Shown here one piece after another: positions 83 through 17,766 of a DNA stretch of 24,698 nt; positions within the stretch are counted from its first letter, which is position 1; the number at the start of each line of letters is the position of its first letter. The position numbers and the translations under genes were made by a program. Below the pieces are notes generated by a model that did not search any database, was not told where the DNA came from, and worked only from the letters and a program-made list of their open reading frames with translations. Source of the stretch: a virus; IMG/VR virus record IMGVR_UViG_3300036521_000002, positions 1 through 24,698 of that record; one strand, written 5' to 3'.

Positions 83-1552
83 CTAAGCTTTGAAGAATTG
101 CGGCGGGGGCGGCATCTGCATCGGATGCCTAAGGCGCCTGTCCGCCGCCTTTGCAAACAATATAAGCCAACGATCGAGGAATTCGATTTCATCCTCAGCG
201 TCGATGGCGAGTGGGCCATGGGCGACGCTCGTCATGCCGGCCACGTTTGACAGCGCCACACTGAATTCGCGGTCGCGCGGATTGATTGCATAGGGTGTTG
301 ATGAATTGTCGGACCTGAAAGACCAGAACGACACCTCACGCCAGCGGTGCTCCGGGTCCTTTGGCGTCTTACAAAACACTAAGCTGGCCGAGAATGTGTA
401 GATCGAGGAGCTTCCGTAAGACAGCGGCTCCATTTGGCAGCGCAAAACAATCTTAGAAGCAGCCGCGACGTCCCACCCACTTTGATTTGGATCGGCCCGG
501 TTGTCGATTCTTTCGGGCGGGTCAAACATCAGATGGGCGGGGCCAAGAACAATTGCGCGGTCCGAGCGACTAGCATTTTCAGAGCTAGACTCTATTTCGT
601 CGAATAGCCGCTGCATAAGGCTCTTCAGGCTCTCTATTGCCTCCGTCACCATAGCTGCGCGAGCCTTCCGCGTAGCCTCAATTTCCCGCTGCTGCGCCTC
701 TTTCGCCGCCTCCTCCTGAGAAACCCTGAGGGCGGCTTCAACCAAGAGTCCACGCGCCCCGCTCTGCGTGGCCCGCACGTTGGTGATAACTCGCAAACAA
801 CGGTCCAGGTTGGGGCGCACCTCCTGAACTTTGCGCAACATAGCGTTTACAAGGCTGGCAAGGCGGGGTTCAACGCCCTTTAGGTCCGGCGGCGGGGAGT
901 GGAGGTGCGCGTTCCTGACGCTATCGACGTCGCCGCGGAACGGCGGGTGACCGTTCAGTATCGCATGAATGATGCAGCCGAGAGCGTAGACGTCTGTGGC
1001 CGAAGTCGGCCGCAGTCCCATCCACTGCTCAGGCGCGGCATATGACGGAGTGAGCGCTGATCGTAGCGTTTCTAGCGAGGTGCTATCTTCAACAAACTTT
1101 GCGATGCCAAAATCGGCAATCTTCCAACGGTCTTCATGCAGAAGAACGTTGCCTGGCTTTAAGTCGCGGTGCACGATATCGCCGACTTCTTGAAGGCCCG
1201 CGACGATATCGAGCACAATCTCTTGCGCAGACGCCCAATCTAGAGGTCCTTCACGCTTGAGCTTGTCGTGTAGACTCTCTTCGCATATTGGCATTACCAA
1301 AAAATATCGGTCGCTATCCGGATCCTGCCCGTAGTCGAGTATAGGAACGACATGATCGAGCGGCTTCGATGCTAGTACCTTGCCAATGCTTAACTCCCGG
1401 TGAGCCGCAGCCTCAGCGCTAATATTGAGACGCTTGATCGCCACGGGGCCGTCCGGACCGATGCCGCGAAAGACCTCTCCAAACCCGCCTTTCGCCCCAA
1501 GCCGGGCGCTTTCGTCAAGTCGCCAAACTGCCCGCTCAAGCCTAATTTCCAA
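83..1552 (-). CDS. Hanks-type serine/threonine protein kinase with unrecognised C-terminal domain
   Basis: The 489-residue product should transfer phosphate from ATP to Ser/Thr of protein targets in the cytoplasm. All key kinase elements are visible: a glycine-rich loop at residues 19-25 (GAKGGFG), the VAIK lysine K40, a likely alpha-C glutamate E53, HRDLKPGN at 128-135, DFG at 147-149 and APE at 173-175. It is therefore predicted to be active. The kinase domain ends near residue 260. A charged helical, probably coiled-coil stretch (about 270-325) follows, then about 160 residues I do not recognise. No signal peptide or membrane segment is evident. The start is a TTG preceded by GGAG six bases upstream; no closer ATG fits. 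The gene is visibly AT-richer than the phage genes to its right, suggesting separate acquisition. It may be prophage cargo, for example defence or superinfection exclusion, or a host gene next to the prophage. The kinase call is secure and the role is not. Confidence 0.93.
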   Translation of the reverse strand: MEIRLERAVWRLDESARLGAKGGFGEVFRGIGPDGPVAIKRLNISAEAAAHRELSIGKVLASKPLDHVVPILDYGQDPDSDRYFLVMPICEESLHDKLKREGPLDWASAQEIVLDIVAGLQEVGDIVHRDLKPGNVLLHEDRWKIADFGIAKFVEDSTSLETLRSALTPSYAAPEQWMGLRPTSATDVYALGCIIHAILNGHPPFRGDVDSVRNAHLHSPPPDLKGVEPRLASLVNAMLRKVQEVRPNLDRCLRVITNVRATQSGARGLLVEAALRVSQEEAAKEAQQREIEATRKARAAMVTEAIESLKSLMQRLFDEIESSSENASRSDRAIVLGPAHLMFDPPERIDNRADPNQSGWDVAAASKIVLRCQMEPLSYGSSSIYTFSASLVFCKTPKDPEHRWREVSFWSFRSDNSSTPYAINPRDREFSVALSNVAGMTSVAHGPLAIDAEDEIEFLDRWLILFAKAADRRLRHPMQMPPPPQFFKA

Positions 1553-1599
1553 GGTCAGCTCCAGACTACCATTTCGCCCGCGAACATATTGAGTGCCTG

Positions 1600-2484: not shown

Positions 2485-3675
2485 TTAGGCTCCCGTATCG
2501 CGGCCGAGCTTCACTGCCCGCACCGTCTGGTCGACGGCCGCGCGTGTGCGAAGCCACATGAGAATTGAAAGAGCGAGCACCGCGCCGAAGAACAGCCACG
2601 GCGCCATCGCCGTGATGTCCGCCTTGAAAGGCGAGAGCGTCGAGAGCGCGTCGCCGGATCGTTCCCAGGCGCCGAAAATCACGGCGCCGCCCGCCGCAGC
2701 GACAGCCTGCACCTTGGCCCAGAAGCCGCCCTTGAGCGCCGCCTGCGCCGCTGCGGGCAGCCGGCCGGTCTCGGCCAGGCTCTTGGCCGTGGCATTCTCG
2801 CGTTCGGCCGACAGCTGGCGGGTCGGCACGCCATGGGCGACAATGAAGGCACGCGTTTCTGTGTTCATCTCGCCGGTAGCGGGCAGGGCGTTGTCGGTCT
2901 GGAAGGCGAAGATCGCCGCACGGGTGCGGGTGCCCATCTTGCCGTCGACGAAGCCGACCTCGGTGTAAAGGGCGTCCTGCAGTTGTTGCTGCAACGCGCG
3001 GACCTCGTAATCCGTCATCTTCGGCGCCGCAGGCGGCGGAGCGGGGGACGGCGGAGCCGGAACATAGAAGTCGCGCAGATCCTCCCGCGCCTTGGCCGGA
3101 CGCGCGGCAGGCTCCACGGAGGCCGAGGCCAGCGCCGCCGTTAAGGCGGCGCGAGCATCAACACGGCAGCCGCTCTTCCAGTCCGGCGTCATCTTCGCCG
3201 TGAGACGGGTGTACTCGGTGATGGTGCCGTCGTTCGACCACTTGCCATCGAAGAAGAGATCGCGCTCCTTCTCGCGGCGCGGGATGATCTCGGGCGGCTT
3301 ACGCCAATCCATGAAGGCCTTGCGCGCGCCGGCGACGTCACCGGCCAGCCACTTCTTAACCCAGCCTGCGCGGCCAATGGCGCCGGCGTTGTAGTGGAAA
3401 GAGAGGGCGGCGGTGAACTGCGCCGATGTCAGCAACCGCCCACCGAACGCCTTGCGCACGGCCGGCGCGTATTTGGTTTCGAGCAGCCAGGCGAAAACAG
3501 CGAGGCAGTGCTCCAGCGTCTGTGGCTTGCCAATATAGCGATCGACATCATGTCCGCTCTTGCTCGTCACGCCGATCGACCAGGTCGGGATGCCCTTGCT
3601 GTCTTTATAGGTCTGGCGCACCAACCCCTCATGTGACGCGACTTCCAGCGCCACATCGACATCGACGTGGTTCAT
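2485..3675 (-). CDS. endolysin: GH24 lysozyme with peptidoglycan-binding domain and C-terminal membrane segments
   Basis: This 396-residue muramidase should cleave the MurNAc-GlcNAc bond of peptidoglycan. The T4-lysozyme-type triad spacing E-x8-D-x5-T is exact: E16, D25 and T31, followed by W-S-I-G-V-T, with HYNAG at 94-98. A proline-rich linker (206-218) leads to a peptidoglycan-binding-type domain (about 222-281, with ALQQQL, FVDGKMGTRTRAAIFAFQ). Two hydrophobic segments follow, at about 318-337 and 357-376. There is no N-terminal signal peptide, so export would need the holin. The C-terminal membrane segments are unusual for a simple endolysin and may tether it to the inner membrane. GGAG precedes the ATG by seven bases. 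The gene begins just after an intrinsic terminator, so it must have a promoter or readthrough of its own. The lysozyme call is firm. Confidence 0.92.
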   Translation of the reverse strand: MNHVDVDVALEVASHEGLVRQTYKDSKGIPTWSIGVTSKSGHDVDRYIGKPQTLEHCLAVFAWLLETKYAPAVRKAFGGRLLTSAQFTAALSFHYNAGAIGRAGWVKKWLAGDVAGARKAFMDWRKPPEIIPRREKERDLFFDGKWSNDGTITEYTRLTAKMTPDWKSGCRVDARAALTAALASASVEPAARPAKAREDLRDFYVPAPPSPAPPPAAPKMTDYEVRALQQQLQDALYTEVGFVDGKMGTRTRAAIFAFQTDNALPATGEMNTETRAFIVAHGVPTRQLSAERENATAKSLAETGRLPAAAQAALKGGFWAKVQAVAAAGGAVIFGAWERSGDALSTLSPFKADITAMAPWLFFGAVLALSILMWLRTRAAVDQTVRAVKLGRDTGA

Positions 3676-5687: not shown

Positions 5688-6842
5688 TCAGGACCTCCCG
5701 TCCAGCTGCAGGAGCATCAGCCACGGCCCGGTGAGCGTGCCGCCCACGCGATAGGCCGAGACATTGTCGCCGGGCGCGAGGACGAGGGTCAGGCCGGTGA
5801 TAATCGTCGGCGCCGCGCTGGAGAGCGCAAAGGGGCCGGCGAAGGGCAGACCGTTCTTCTCGATATAGAGGCTCACGCCAACCGCTGCGCCCGCGAGCAT
5901 TTCCACGCGAAGGCGCGTGAAGGTCGCTGCGCCGTGGTAGTCTCGCGTGGCCCACCATCCTCCTGGCTCGATGTCTGTTGCATCGCTCACCGCCAGCACC
6001 AGCGGCTCGCCGGGCGCGCCCGGAAGGCCCTGTACGCCGGCCGGGATCGAGAACTGCAGGTTGGCCGCGTTCGGCGAACCCTCATTCACCACGGTCGCCG
6101 GCTGGCCGGGAGCAAGAGTGATAGTTCCGGCGACCGCAAGCGTCGCGGCGACGCCGGGAGCACCCTGGTCACCGGCGGGGATAGAGAAGCGCAGCTTCGG
6201 CCCTTCCGGCGTGCTGCTCGGGTCGAGCGTTACCGTGGCGGGCTGGCCGGGCGGGAGTGTGGTGGTGGAGAACACCGAGATGTCAGGTGTCAGGCCGACG
6301 CCGCCTCGGATGTCCGTCGCCTCGGCAATATCGTCCACCAGCCCTTCCCGGCTGAGATATTGCCCCGCAGGCAGCTTGTCGCCGCCGCCTCCGGTCCAGT
6401 CGGCAACCTGCAGCACGATGGCTTCGCCGCGCGCGGCAGCGGCGAATAGGGGCGCCCATCCGCGCGGACCCTGGAGGCTAGGCCCGCGCAAGGTCACGGT
6501 CGAGCGCACGAACTCGCCCGGCCCGTAAAGCCGGACGTGGCCGGCAGCGATCTTGTCGCGACGACCTTCGAAGCGCCGGAAGACATCGAAATAGCCCGGC
6601 TCAGCCCGGCGGAAGTTCATCCATTCAGCGGGGCCATAAGTCATCGCGACCCGGTGCGGAGGCTCCACCGCAAGCGCAGTCGCCTCACCCGAAACGAGCA
6701 GAAGAGGGGGGTCGTCCGGGCGCCCGCGCAGCTCGATCTCGACGACAGAACCCGTGAGGTCATAGTCCGGGAAGTCGAGCCAGGTGATCGCAGCCTCCGC
6801 CCCCATGCAGAGGGGGAGGACAGGGGGGCATGCAGCGGCCAT
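5688..6842 (-). CDS. tail fibre protein with fused BppU-like N-domain and collagen-like repeats
   Basis: A 384-residue fibre. Residues 15-117 look like a BppU-type N-terminal domain (DLTGSVVEIELRG, later YFDVFRRFEG and AAGHVRLYGPG), expected to attach to the baseplate. Residues 118-169 form a module, LRGP...GWAP...AA..GE.IV...W.GGGGD..PAG, that is also present in the fibre at 7424-8269. Two diverged repeats follow at 195-230 and 242-275 (TLxPGQPATV...FSIPAGxQGxPG), a collagen-like stalk. A beta-rich tip ends the protein (about 285-384). GAGG precedes the ATG. No signal peptide is expected, as it is assembled in the cytoplasm. The fibre role is well supported; the receptor is unknown. Confidence 0.85.
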   Translation of the reverse strand: MAAACPPVLPLCMGAEAAITWLDFPDYDLTGSVVEIELRGRPDDPPLLLVSGEATALAVEPPHRVAMTYGPAEWMNFRRAEPGYFDVFRRFEGRRDKIAAGHVRLYGPGEFVRSTVTLRGPSLQGPRGWAPLFAAAARGEAIVLQVADWTGGGGDKLPAGQYLSREGLVDDIAEATDIRGGVGLTPDISVFSTTTLPPGQPATVTLDPSSTPEGPKLRFSIPAGDQGAPGVAATLAVAGTITLAPGQPATVVNEGSPNAANLQFSIPAGVQGLPGAPGEPLVLAVSDATDIEPGGWWATRDYHGAATFTRLRVEMLAGAAVGVSLYIEKNGLPFAGPFALSSAAPTIITGLTLVLAPGDNVSAYRVGGTLTGPWLMLLQLDGRS

Positions 6843-6885
6843 AGCGATGCCTCAAGGATCCAGGAAAGAGGGGGAGGTTGCCCGC

Positions 6886-7158
6886 TCAGAGCCGCGTGGA
6901 TGCCGCGATGAAAAGTGCGTCGATCGCTTCGGCGGACAGGCCGAGCTCATCAGCCAGCGCGTTCAGATAGGCGTTGTTGCGCTCGAAGGTCAGCGCATTG
7001 TCCCACCACAGGCGCAGCACCGGGTAGGAATGCGCGGCGATGGCGGCTTCCACAGCCGCCAGCAGCCCGGCTTCGTGCAGTGCCACCTTGGCCCGCGCTC
7101 GGGTGATCTGTGTCGGCACTGCGGGCGGCGGCGCGGGCCGAAGAGTGATCACGGTCAT
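6886..7158 (-). CDS. small tail-fibre-associated protein (90 aa)
   Basis: A 90-residue, mostly helical protein: QITRARAKVALHEAGLLAAV is followed by WWDNALTFERN and a C-terminal LADELGLSAEAIDALF. This layout (an ITR.xAxxAL..AGLL.AVEAA helix, then an aromatic stretch and LGLS...IDxLF) recurs in small proteins beside phage tail-fibre genes. They are generally taken as fibre-assembly or accessory proteins, with no established activity known to me. The ATG overlaps the TGA of the preceding 86-aa gene (ATGA), so the two are coupled. The in-frame extension up to 7422 overlaps that gene and is Arg/His-rich, so it is rejected. Confidence 0.75.
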   Translation of the reverse strand: MTVITLRPAPPPAVPTQITRARAKVALHEAGLLAAVEAAIAAHSYPVLRLWWDNALTFERNNAYLNALADELGLSAEAIDALFIAASTRL

Positions 7159-7415
7159 TCCCCACTCTCCTGAGCGGTGCGCGAGGCCCAGAACGCCACC
7201 GCGCCGAGGCCGAAGCCATCCGGGGCCGAAAAGTCCGCCGTCCAAAGAGCCCGCATCGAGCGATCGGCGGGAATGTCGGCCGCACCGACAATACGAAAGG
7301 GCACACCGGCCGGCGTGTCCTTGGCGGCGATGTCGTCGATGGAAAGGCCGGCACCAGGCGCGGGGATGATGACCGCGACGCCACCGTCGAGCGGGTAGAT
7401 GATGCGAAGATCCAT
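7155..7415 (-). CDS. small tail-fibre-associated protein (86 aa)
   Basis: An 86-residue protein beginning DLRIIYPLDGGVAVIIPAPG, then DTPAGVPFRIVGAADIPADR and a C-terminal W-T-A-D-F. The pattern RIIYPxDGGVAVIxPAPG...xPAGVPxxIVxxxDIPxDR is familiar from small conserved genes next to tail fibres of many temperate phages. Their function is not established. GAGGTG precedes the ATG. It forms a translationally coupled pair with the 90-aa gene after it and directly follows the fibre at 7424-8269, which suggests a role in fibre maturation. Confidence 0.75.
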   Translation of the reverse strand: MDLRIIYPLDGGVAVIIPAPGAGLSIDDIAAKDTPAGVPFRIVGAADIPADRSMRALWTADFSAPDGFGLGAVAFWASRTAQESGE

Positions 7416-7423
7416 GCTGCACC

Positions 7424-8269
7424 TCAGTGGAAGACGGCGACGCAGGCGCGGGCGAGATCGTTCTTCACCACCACGCCATTGGGCGAGCCGACTGCGAACA
7501 GCCGAACGCTGGCCGTGGTCGGTGGCGACGACGTGTTGGTCACCATCGACTGCACGGAGCCGCCATCGCCGTTGCCGCCGGCGAATACGGCGTAGTCGGC
7601 CGTCGGCAGCGGCGACGCGAAATTGACGGTGTAGTCGCCCGTGCCGTTGTCGGTGATGCTCGAAACGTTGTGAGCCCGGGTGATCGCAACGGTGCCCGTG
7701 CCGTTGAACCGCACCCAAGCCTTGGCAGCAGCCCTGTGTGCGCCGATGGCATCGGCTGTCCGCGCCGGCGTCATGGCGGTGGTGTCGTCAAGGCCTGCGG
7801 CGGCCTGAGCACTGGAAGACTTCGGCACCGTGATACTGCGATTGGCGGTCAGGTCACCGCCCCCGGCGGCGAGCCCGCCCCCGGTGATCGTGCGCGAAGT
7901 GGGCACAGCGACTGTCCCACCGGCTCCGCGAAAATCGACGGCCGCGGCCGCTGTCGCGACAATTCCGGTAGGGCCGACATAGCCTAGCCCACCCGCCGGC
8001 GGATCGCCGGAGCCGCCGAGCCAGCCGATGATGCGCATCACAATACGCTCGCCGTCGGCCTCCGCGGCGATCGCCGGCGCCCAACCATAGCCTTGCGGCC
8101 CGCCCGGACCGCGCAGCGGCTGCCAGGGGCCCCATTCGCCATCCGGCAGGCGGAAATGCAGGGAGAAGCCGTCGGCACCGCCCCACTCATGAGCCGGCAC
8201 CGGTCCCCGGGGTCCAGGGCTGCCGATAAGCCCGCCGCCCTCGACCTCGATCGTGTACTCTTCGCTCAC
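7424..8269 (-). CDS. tail fibre protein
   Basis: A 281-residue fibre. The N-terminus is a Gly/Pro-rich collagen-like stretch (GSPGPRGP). Residues 52-104 carry the LRGP...GWAP...AA..GE.IV...W.GG.GD..PAG module also found in the fibre at 5688-6842. Residues 139-175 have the LTANRSITVPKSSSAQAAAGLDDTTAMTPAR type sequence common in fibre shafts. Residues 183-281 form a beta-rich tip (AWVRFNGTGTVAI...YTVNFASPLPTADYAVFAG) typical of fibre C-termini. The start is GTG, overlapping the TGA of the BppU-like gene upstream (GTGA). It should bind a host surface receptor. Confidence 0.85.
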   Translation of the reverse strand: MSEEYTIEVEGGGLIGSPGPRGPVPAHEWGGADGFSLHFRLPDGEWGPWQPLRGPGGPQGYGWAPAIAAEADGERIVMRIIGWLGGSGDPPAGGLGYVGPTGIVATAAAAVDFRGAGGTVAVPTSRTITGGGLAAGGGDLTANRSITVPKSSSAQAAAGLDDTTAMTPARTADAIGAHRAAAKAWVRFNGTGTVAITRAHNVSSITDNGTGDYTVNFASPLPTADYAVFAGGNGDGGSVQSMVTNTSSPPTTASVRLFAVGSPNGVVVKNDLARACVAVFH

Positions 8270-16900: not shown

Positions 16901-16956
16901 ATTGCGCAACTCTCCAATCGCTCTCAACGTGAGCGGGTACAGGCTGGGGAATGCCG

Positions 16957-17430
16957 ATGTTCAGAAATTTCATTCAGGTCGCCATCGCGACCATCGCGCT
17001 CCTGGCGCCGGCGGCTGCCGTCGAGCCAGTGATCATTCGCAACGACACGCCATGGTCGAATGAGACGGTACTGCGCGCCGTCGCCATGTTCAGCGTCGCC
17101 TGCAAGCCCCTCGGCGGCGCCATGTGGGACGAGCTCGAGAGCATTGAGGTGGAAGCGCTTCCCGAGTTCGCCGAATTCCGAAAGGACAGGGGCTGGAAGT
17201 ACACGATCTTCGTCCGCGCCAAGGTGCCGGACAGCCCATCGCTGATACCTGCTTCCCGCGCTGACATCGGGGTGATAGCGGGACACACGCTTCACTACGA
17301 CATTGGCGGAGGCAAATCGCCAGGGTTCTTCTCGACCAAGCGAGCGTCGAACTATCTCTGTGGCATCAAGAACTACGACACAGGGGACAGTTTGTTCGTC
17401 TCTGTGCCGGGTCTGAAGTTCCTGAAATAG
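16957..17430 (+). CDS. exported protein of unknown function, antisense insertion in the tail operon
   Basis: A 157-residue protein on the opposite strand to the rest of the late region. A signal peptide is clear: R3, a hydrophobic run at 5-18, and an AxA-type cleavage site after APAAA near residue 21, giving a mature periplasmic or secreted protein of about 136 residues. It has two cysteines in the mature part (C49 and C135), which could form a disulphide. I recognise no catalytic motif or family; the remainder is mixed alpha/beta and includes GWKYTIFVRAKVPDSPS and IGVIAGHTLHYDIGGG. ATG 16957 is preferred because GGGGA is six bases ahead; the first ATG at 16951 abuts it. It is likely a moron, perhaps for superinfection exclusion or lysogenic conversion. 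No good promoter was found. Confidence 0.75.
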   Translation: MFRNFIQVAIATIALLAPAAAVEPVIIRNDTPWSNETVLRAVAMFSVACKPLGGAMWDELESIEVEALPEFAEFRKDRGWKYTIFVRAKVPDSPSLIPASRADIGVIAGHTLHYDIGGGKSPGFFSTKRASNYLCGIKNYDTGDSLFVSVPGLKFLK

Positions 17431-17517
17431 GGATGCCGACTGCAGGTATGTGCCGATACGCAGATTGGCCTCCGCTACGGGTTCCGCTACCTTTCGTTGC
17501 GGAATCAGGAGACGCCT

Positions 17518-17766
17518 ATGAGCATCGTGGTGGCCATTTGCGGTATTTTACTGCTGATCGAGGGCGGCGCGACTGTGGTGAAGGCGTCCACAGCGATGCA
17601 TCAGATTTCGGGAGTTGTGAGCCTTGCCGGCGGTGTGACGGCCATCGGCCTCGCCGCGGTGATCTGGCAGCTTTCGGCAATTCGTCGGCATCTTGCGAAA
17701 GCTACCGATCCGGAAGTGAGCCTGGATGACTTCAGCAGCCGCGCGCGCGAGCCTCAGATCCGCTGA
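17518..17766 (+). CDS. small two-transmembrane protein of unknown function
   Basis: An 82-residue inner-membrane protein with two hydrophobic segments (about 2-20 and 32-54) separated by a short polar loop (SAIMHQ-like), then a charged cytoplasmic tail rich in Arg/Asp/Glu. AGGAG lies eight bases before the ATG. It follows the exported protein by 87 bases on the plus strand and the two probably form a small operon. Its stop overlaps the 3' end of the minus-strand tail tube gene by 13 bases. A holin is unlikely given the separate lysis cassette. The family resembles widespread small bacterial membrane proteins, and no function can be assigned. Confidence 0.7.
   Translation: MSIVVAICGILLLIEGGATVVKASTAMHQISGVVSLAGGVTAIGLAAVIWQLSAIRRHLAKATDPEVSLDDFSSRAREPQIR

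Follow-up and report, generated by a model that had tools for sequence, protein, structure and literature searches.

A Hanks-type serine/threonine kinase behind the lysis genes of a contractile-tailed phage is probable prophage cargo with a possible antiviral role

The KKP system (PfkA/PfkB/PfpC), found in Pf and other prophages, consists of two Hanks-type kinases with CSD and FHA domains and a PP2C phosphatase (PMC11341870). A phage protein releases the toxicity of the kinases, which results in phage defence, and the kinases also control the production of the Pf prophage via phosphorylation of MvaU (PMC11341870). In staphylococci, a single eukaryotic-like Ser/Thr kinase, Stk2, is reported to protect against phages (Depardieu 2016, cited in PMC9122126). 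A tyrosine kinase (Stk) of the 933W prophage is reported to be activated by a heterologous phage and to bring about abortive infection (Friedman 2011, cited in the same article). Here, we describe a kinase gene at the end of a phage late region that resembles KKP as a Hanks-type Ser/Thr kinase most probably borne by a prophage, Stk2 as a single Ser/Thr kinase, and the 933W protein as a prophage-encoded kinase, the last by description rather than by sequence.

The window, i.e., the whole stretch of DNA analysed (24,698 bp), is the entire IMG/VR record IMGVR_UViG_3300036521_000002, a fragment of a contractile-tailed phage with genes for the sheath, tube, tape measure, and capsid E. The kinase gene (83–1552, minus strand) encodes 489 aa, begins with TTG, and ends with a stop codon at 83–85; a Shine-Dalgarno-like GGAG (1559–1562, minus strand) is located 6 nt before the start. 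Upstream on the same strand are an endolysin of 396 aa (2485–3675; lysozyme and PG_binding_1) and two holin-like genes, one at 2068–2481 (phrog_12264 and phrog_3427 holin, with a weak match to GTA_holin_3TM) and the other at 1691–2062 (phrog_13918 and phrog_2359 holin). The kinase gene lies 138 bp beyond them, and its position straight after the lysis cassette, which had been read from the sequence alone, is therefore confirmed. The record stops 82 bp past the kinase stop (1–82), a stretch in which neither an att site nor a tRNA was recognised, so the prophage boundary and its att site lie outside what the record shows. No tRNA, tRNA fragment, att-like repeat, or other notable repeat was found in the first 2000–2600 bp of the record.

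The C-terminus of the endolysin has hydrophobic stretches that resemble a membrane anchor, and its relatives in L006 and L007 likewise end in such a stretch. Elsewhere in the record, two frames on the plus strand (16951–17430 and 17497–17766), opposite to the late genes, are located between the tail chaperone and the tail tube in DNA of lower GC (0.57–0.63). The first encodes 159 aa with a start resembling a signal peptide and the second 89 aa with hydrophobic stretches. The pair looks like a moron cassette, and its membrane protein could have a role in superinfection exclusion.

The composition of the kinase gene is foreign to the phage. Its GC content is 0.572, as compared to 0.642–0.733 in 20 other phage genes of the record, its GC3 is 0.63 against 0.777–0.889, and it is the only gene in this comparison with a negative codon-fit score. 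The AT-richer DNA described by the sequence-only reading is thus borne out, with GC and GC3 below those of all 20 genes. The promoter of its own that the same reading had suggested was not recovered. The gap between the lysis cassette and the kinase gene (1553–1690, AT-richer) showed no sigma-70-like promoter, tRNA fragment, or terminator, and positions 1–2500 contain 0 sigma-70-like sites, as compared to 0.7 in shuffled sequences, although a search with the E. coli consensus has little power for this DNA.

The kinase domain covers residues 17–253 (794–1504, minus strand; Pfam PF00069, Pkinase, E = 1.9e-35). A glycine-rich loop (18–28), K40, E53, the HRD motif (H128-R129-D130), K132, N135, the DFG motif (D147-F148-G149), the APE motif (A173-P174-E175), D187, and R246 are all present, in agreement with the earlier claim of a complete Hanks-type kinase (K40, D130, N135, D147, and APE), and the core catalytic residues are invariant in the alignment of full-length homologues. 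By its residues, then, this is a Hanks-type Ser/Thr protein kinase with an intact catalytic set that looks competent. T158 and T162, two threonines between DFG and APE that are invariant among the homologues, are natural candidates for autophosphorylation. No transmembrane segment was found in the protein (the maximum hydropathy over 19 residues is 1.18), which is best explained as soluble.

The kinase domain is followed by a predicted long helix or coiled coil (residues ~262–329; 566–769, minus strand), which is helical in both AlphaFold2 models and has a pLDDT of ~67–84 in the C-terminal one. Beyond it lies a conserved C-terminal domain (residues ~340–482; 107–535, minus strand) with no Pfam family, the kinase domain being the only Pfam match of the protein. 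A profile made from the C-termini of five plasmid homologues matched the C-terminus of the kinase at E = 2.6e-23, as against 0.12 for the best-scoring decoy among 5000 shuffled ones; the homology therefore extends beyond the kinase domain. In the C-terminal model, built from two sequences (pLDDT 69), the long helix leads into a part made of four beta strands and further helices; this model had no fold match in the PDB at E ≤ 0.001. The model of the whole protein from two sequences was too poor to use (mean pLDDT 43).

Among plasmids, tblastn detected nine records, from Rhodococcus, Streptomyces, and Variovorax, in which the match spans 80% or more of the kinase. Five of these homologues were aligned and are 26–34% identical over nearly the whole length, with the same architecture. 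No partner gene is common to the five plasmid loci, so the kinase probably works alone. Members of the family on plasmids are mostly without recognised defence genes as direct neighbours, and the gene preceding the Variovorax copy has an AbiTii domain. An exact-word search of viral and genome collections returned the homologue in prophage L013 as the sole full-length relative. The scan of 84,980 species genomes by exact words, which detects close relatives only, gave no close homologue, and 145 genomes sampled from the phylum to which one MAG belongs yielded matches to the kinase domain only. The kinase family is uncharacterised, and it travels on phages as well as on plasmids in bacteria that are only distantly related.

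Comparison with relatives of the phage shows that the gene is accessory. A profile search found the kinase in none of the 20 records with a related sheath (35–73% sheath identity, half of them above 60%), some of which are fragmentary. In one such relative (G163), only ~29 bp separate the end of the late region from an integrase that it faces, and this gap is empty. The L013 prophage record (IMGVR 2775506733_000001) encodes a homologue that is 48% identical to the kinase; its frame runs to 1290, and an integrase (phrog_1) starts at 1300, tail to tail with it across a 9-bp gap. The other 26 proteins of our record that were tested had no match in the L013 phage. The kinase is thus found near an extremity in two phages that are not otherwise related. 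The L013 record is cut at the kinase, and an att core would need the 9-bp gap or an overlap with a gene; the longest word shared by this region with the end of its record is 13 bp, which is at chance level. Near the other end of the L013 record, two AT-rich genes of no known family (428 and 134 aa; L061 15962–17652) adjoin an SRAP gene, and they are a possible second cargo of this kinase-bearing prophage.

We examined what follows the holin-like gene 2068–2481 in related phages, which share a lysis gene but not the structural backbone with the kinase phage. Among the 33 closest loci, ten are non-redundant and have at least 2.5 kb beyond the holin-like gene; restriction- or defence-type genes follow in four, host-type genes in five, and the remaining one continues into phage genes. 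The slot contains Vsr, an AspBHI-like endonuclease, and a C5 methylase in L138, a methylase with proteins of 814 and 232 aa in L142, a methylase with an AAA_5 protein in L148, and a methylase with HerA in L166. Two relatives of the endolysin carry an anti-phage dCTP deaminase (L007, 8.5e-165) and a pair of HEPN and GmrSD_N proteins (L054). The latter pair (5804–7557, behind the lysis genes; HEPN of the MAE_28990-like type and GmrSD_N/DUF262) matches the NsnA and PD-T4-2_A models.

In the record to which L142 belongs (G176), a perfect 49-bp att repeat within a tRNA-Met gene is present at 2288–2336, near the integrase, and at 50391–50439. The cargo at 45397–49688 (L142 6698–10989) is located between both copies, which indicates that the slot behind the lysis genes can be inside the prophage and can be used for antiviral-type cargo. 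No such att repeat was found in G175 and G178. The 814-aa and 232-aa proteins encoded beside the methylase in this interval match no Pfam or PADLOC family, and the interval is a candidate for an unannotated defence system. To the left of attL, positions 1–2287 of the same record (L219) repeat the tail region of this prophage, with exact stretches of 59 and 56 bp, which suggests that another prophage is integrated in tandem at this tRNA-Met.

The post-lysis position can also be read in another way: the late region would end at the lysis cassette, the att site would lie in 1553–1690, and the kinase gene would belong to the accessory genes of the host next to the prophage, unconnected with the phage. 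In five non-redundant phages whose holin-like gene is 48–56% identical to ours, host-type genes (a P-type ATPase, a phosphoketolase, a LacI regulator, a glycogen debranching enzyme, and Usp) begin a few hundred to ~2700 bp beyond the lysis gene, so a prophage can also end right after its lysis cassette, and the provirus record L013 likewise has the homologue at its margin. However, the start of our record has no tRNA fragment or att-like repeat, and the kinase has no close homologue in the exact-word scan described above, with its reach of close relatives, unlike a conserved host gene. This reading would moreover require that an AT-rich member of one kinase family happened to flank each of two prophages with no other tested gene in common. 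We consider a location outside the prophage distinctly unlikely. The kinase might instead be expressed late in the lytic cycle and, like the T7 gene 0.7 kinase, target host proteins while its own phage is infecting. This would fit with the shared strand of the kinase and lysis genes and with the lack of a separate promoter in our search, which makes read-through from the late operon possible. The T7 kinase acts early, however, and host take-over kinases are early genes, whereas the present gene is the last in the late region; it is also compositionally foreign and missing from the backbone relatives, and such a role appears very unlikely.

The kinase could also be prophage cargo for regulation or lysogenic conversion, which phosphorylates host regulators and tunes induction or host physiology with no antiviral effect. 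The KKP kinases offer a precedent, as they govern the production of the Pf prophage through MvaU (PMC11341870), and the scarcity of recognised defence genes directly next to the plasmid copies is compatible with this idea. On the other hand, no regulator or phosphatase adjoins the kinase here or is common to the plasmid loci, and other cargo of the slot is mostly of the antiviral or restriction type. We regard a purely regulatory function as unlikely.

The kinase gene is probably prophage cargo, as the sequence-only reading had proposed. Its absence from the backbone relatives, its foreign composition, and its place beside an integrase in an unrelated prophage support this interpretation, as do the antiviral-type systems that occupy the post-lysis slot of phages sharing lysis genes, in one case within att repeats. 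In our best explanation, its site is an accessory slot that extends from the lysis cassette to the integrase or the end of the prophage. A defensive role is our leading guess, to which the analysis gives roughly even chances; bacterial kinases have many non-defensive roles. The fuller proposal, in which a temperate phage with a contractile tail acquired the gene horizontally as cargo and the product is a stand-alone kinase for abortive infection or exclusion, is about evenly balanced between right and wrong.

Under this proposal, the kinase would be expressed and work alone in the lysogen, and its C-terminal part would hold it quiet before infection. We infer that an infecting phage would be the trigger, upon which the kinase would phosphorylate itself and presumably host proteins. 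Growth would then stop and the rival phage would fail, through either abortive infection or exclusion. KKP, Stk2, and the 933W kinase serve as precedents for this scheme. The broader idea that the family is a single-gene antiviral system carried by proteobacterial and actinobacterial phages and plasmids, with a C-terminal sensor and a growth-stopping kinase that has no phosphatase antidote, is tentative, and we consider it somewhat doubtful. If it were true, a compact stand-alone kinase family would join the few known kinase-based antiviral systems, the C-terminal domain would become a candidate for a new type of sensor, and further systems might be sought behind the lysis genes in this group of phages. 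If the family is not antiviral, it would nevertheless be a mobile and uncharacterised group of kinases, carried by plasmids and phages across distantly related bacteria.

KKP consists of two kinases and a phosphatase, whereas this locus, as far as the record extends, has one kinase, a different C-terminal domain, and no phosphatase gene. The genes upstream are lysis genes and not a PP2C phosphatase, none was seen in the 82 bp downstream, and the plasmid loci have no shared partner. Membership in KKP was rejected on the pair of kinases with CSD and FHA domains: Pfam recognises the kinase domain alone, and lysis genes stand upstream. The best PADLOC match of the kinase is MAD6 of MADS (2.5e-47, residues 21–301); identity with MAD6 was rejected at 93.6 bits against the curated NCBIfam cut-off of 460, and the other MADS genes are absent. 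PglW of BREX/Pgl was likewise rejected (28.1 bits against a curated cut-off of 990). PADLOC models of PD-T4-6 match up to 1.1e-39 through the kinase domain and respond to such domains broadly. Of these, PDLC04042 was run against control genomes and also hit 11 of the 14 (E ≤ 0.001); it is thus non-specific, so PD-T4-6 calls made with no cut-off need care. Stk2 differs from the present kinase in architecture, and identity with it was rejected on a match of 60.6 bits that covers residues 51–203 and not the full length. The kinase of 933W is described, in the article that cites it, as a tyrosine kinase, in contrast to the Ser/Thr type found here. The plasmid kinases of Variovorax, Rhodococcus, and Streptomyces, which are annotated only as serine/threonine-protein kinase, have the same full architecture including the C-terminal domain; they are borne on plasmids, whereas the kinase described here is located in the late region of a phage.
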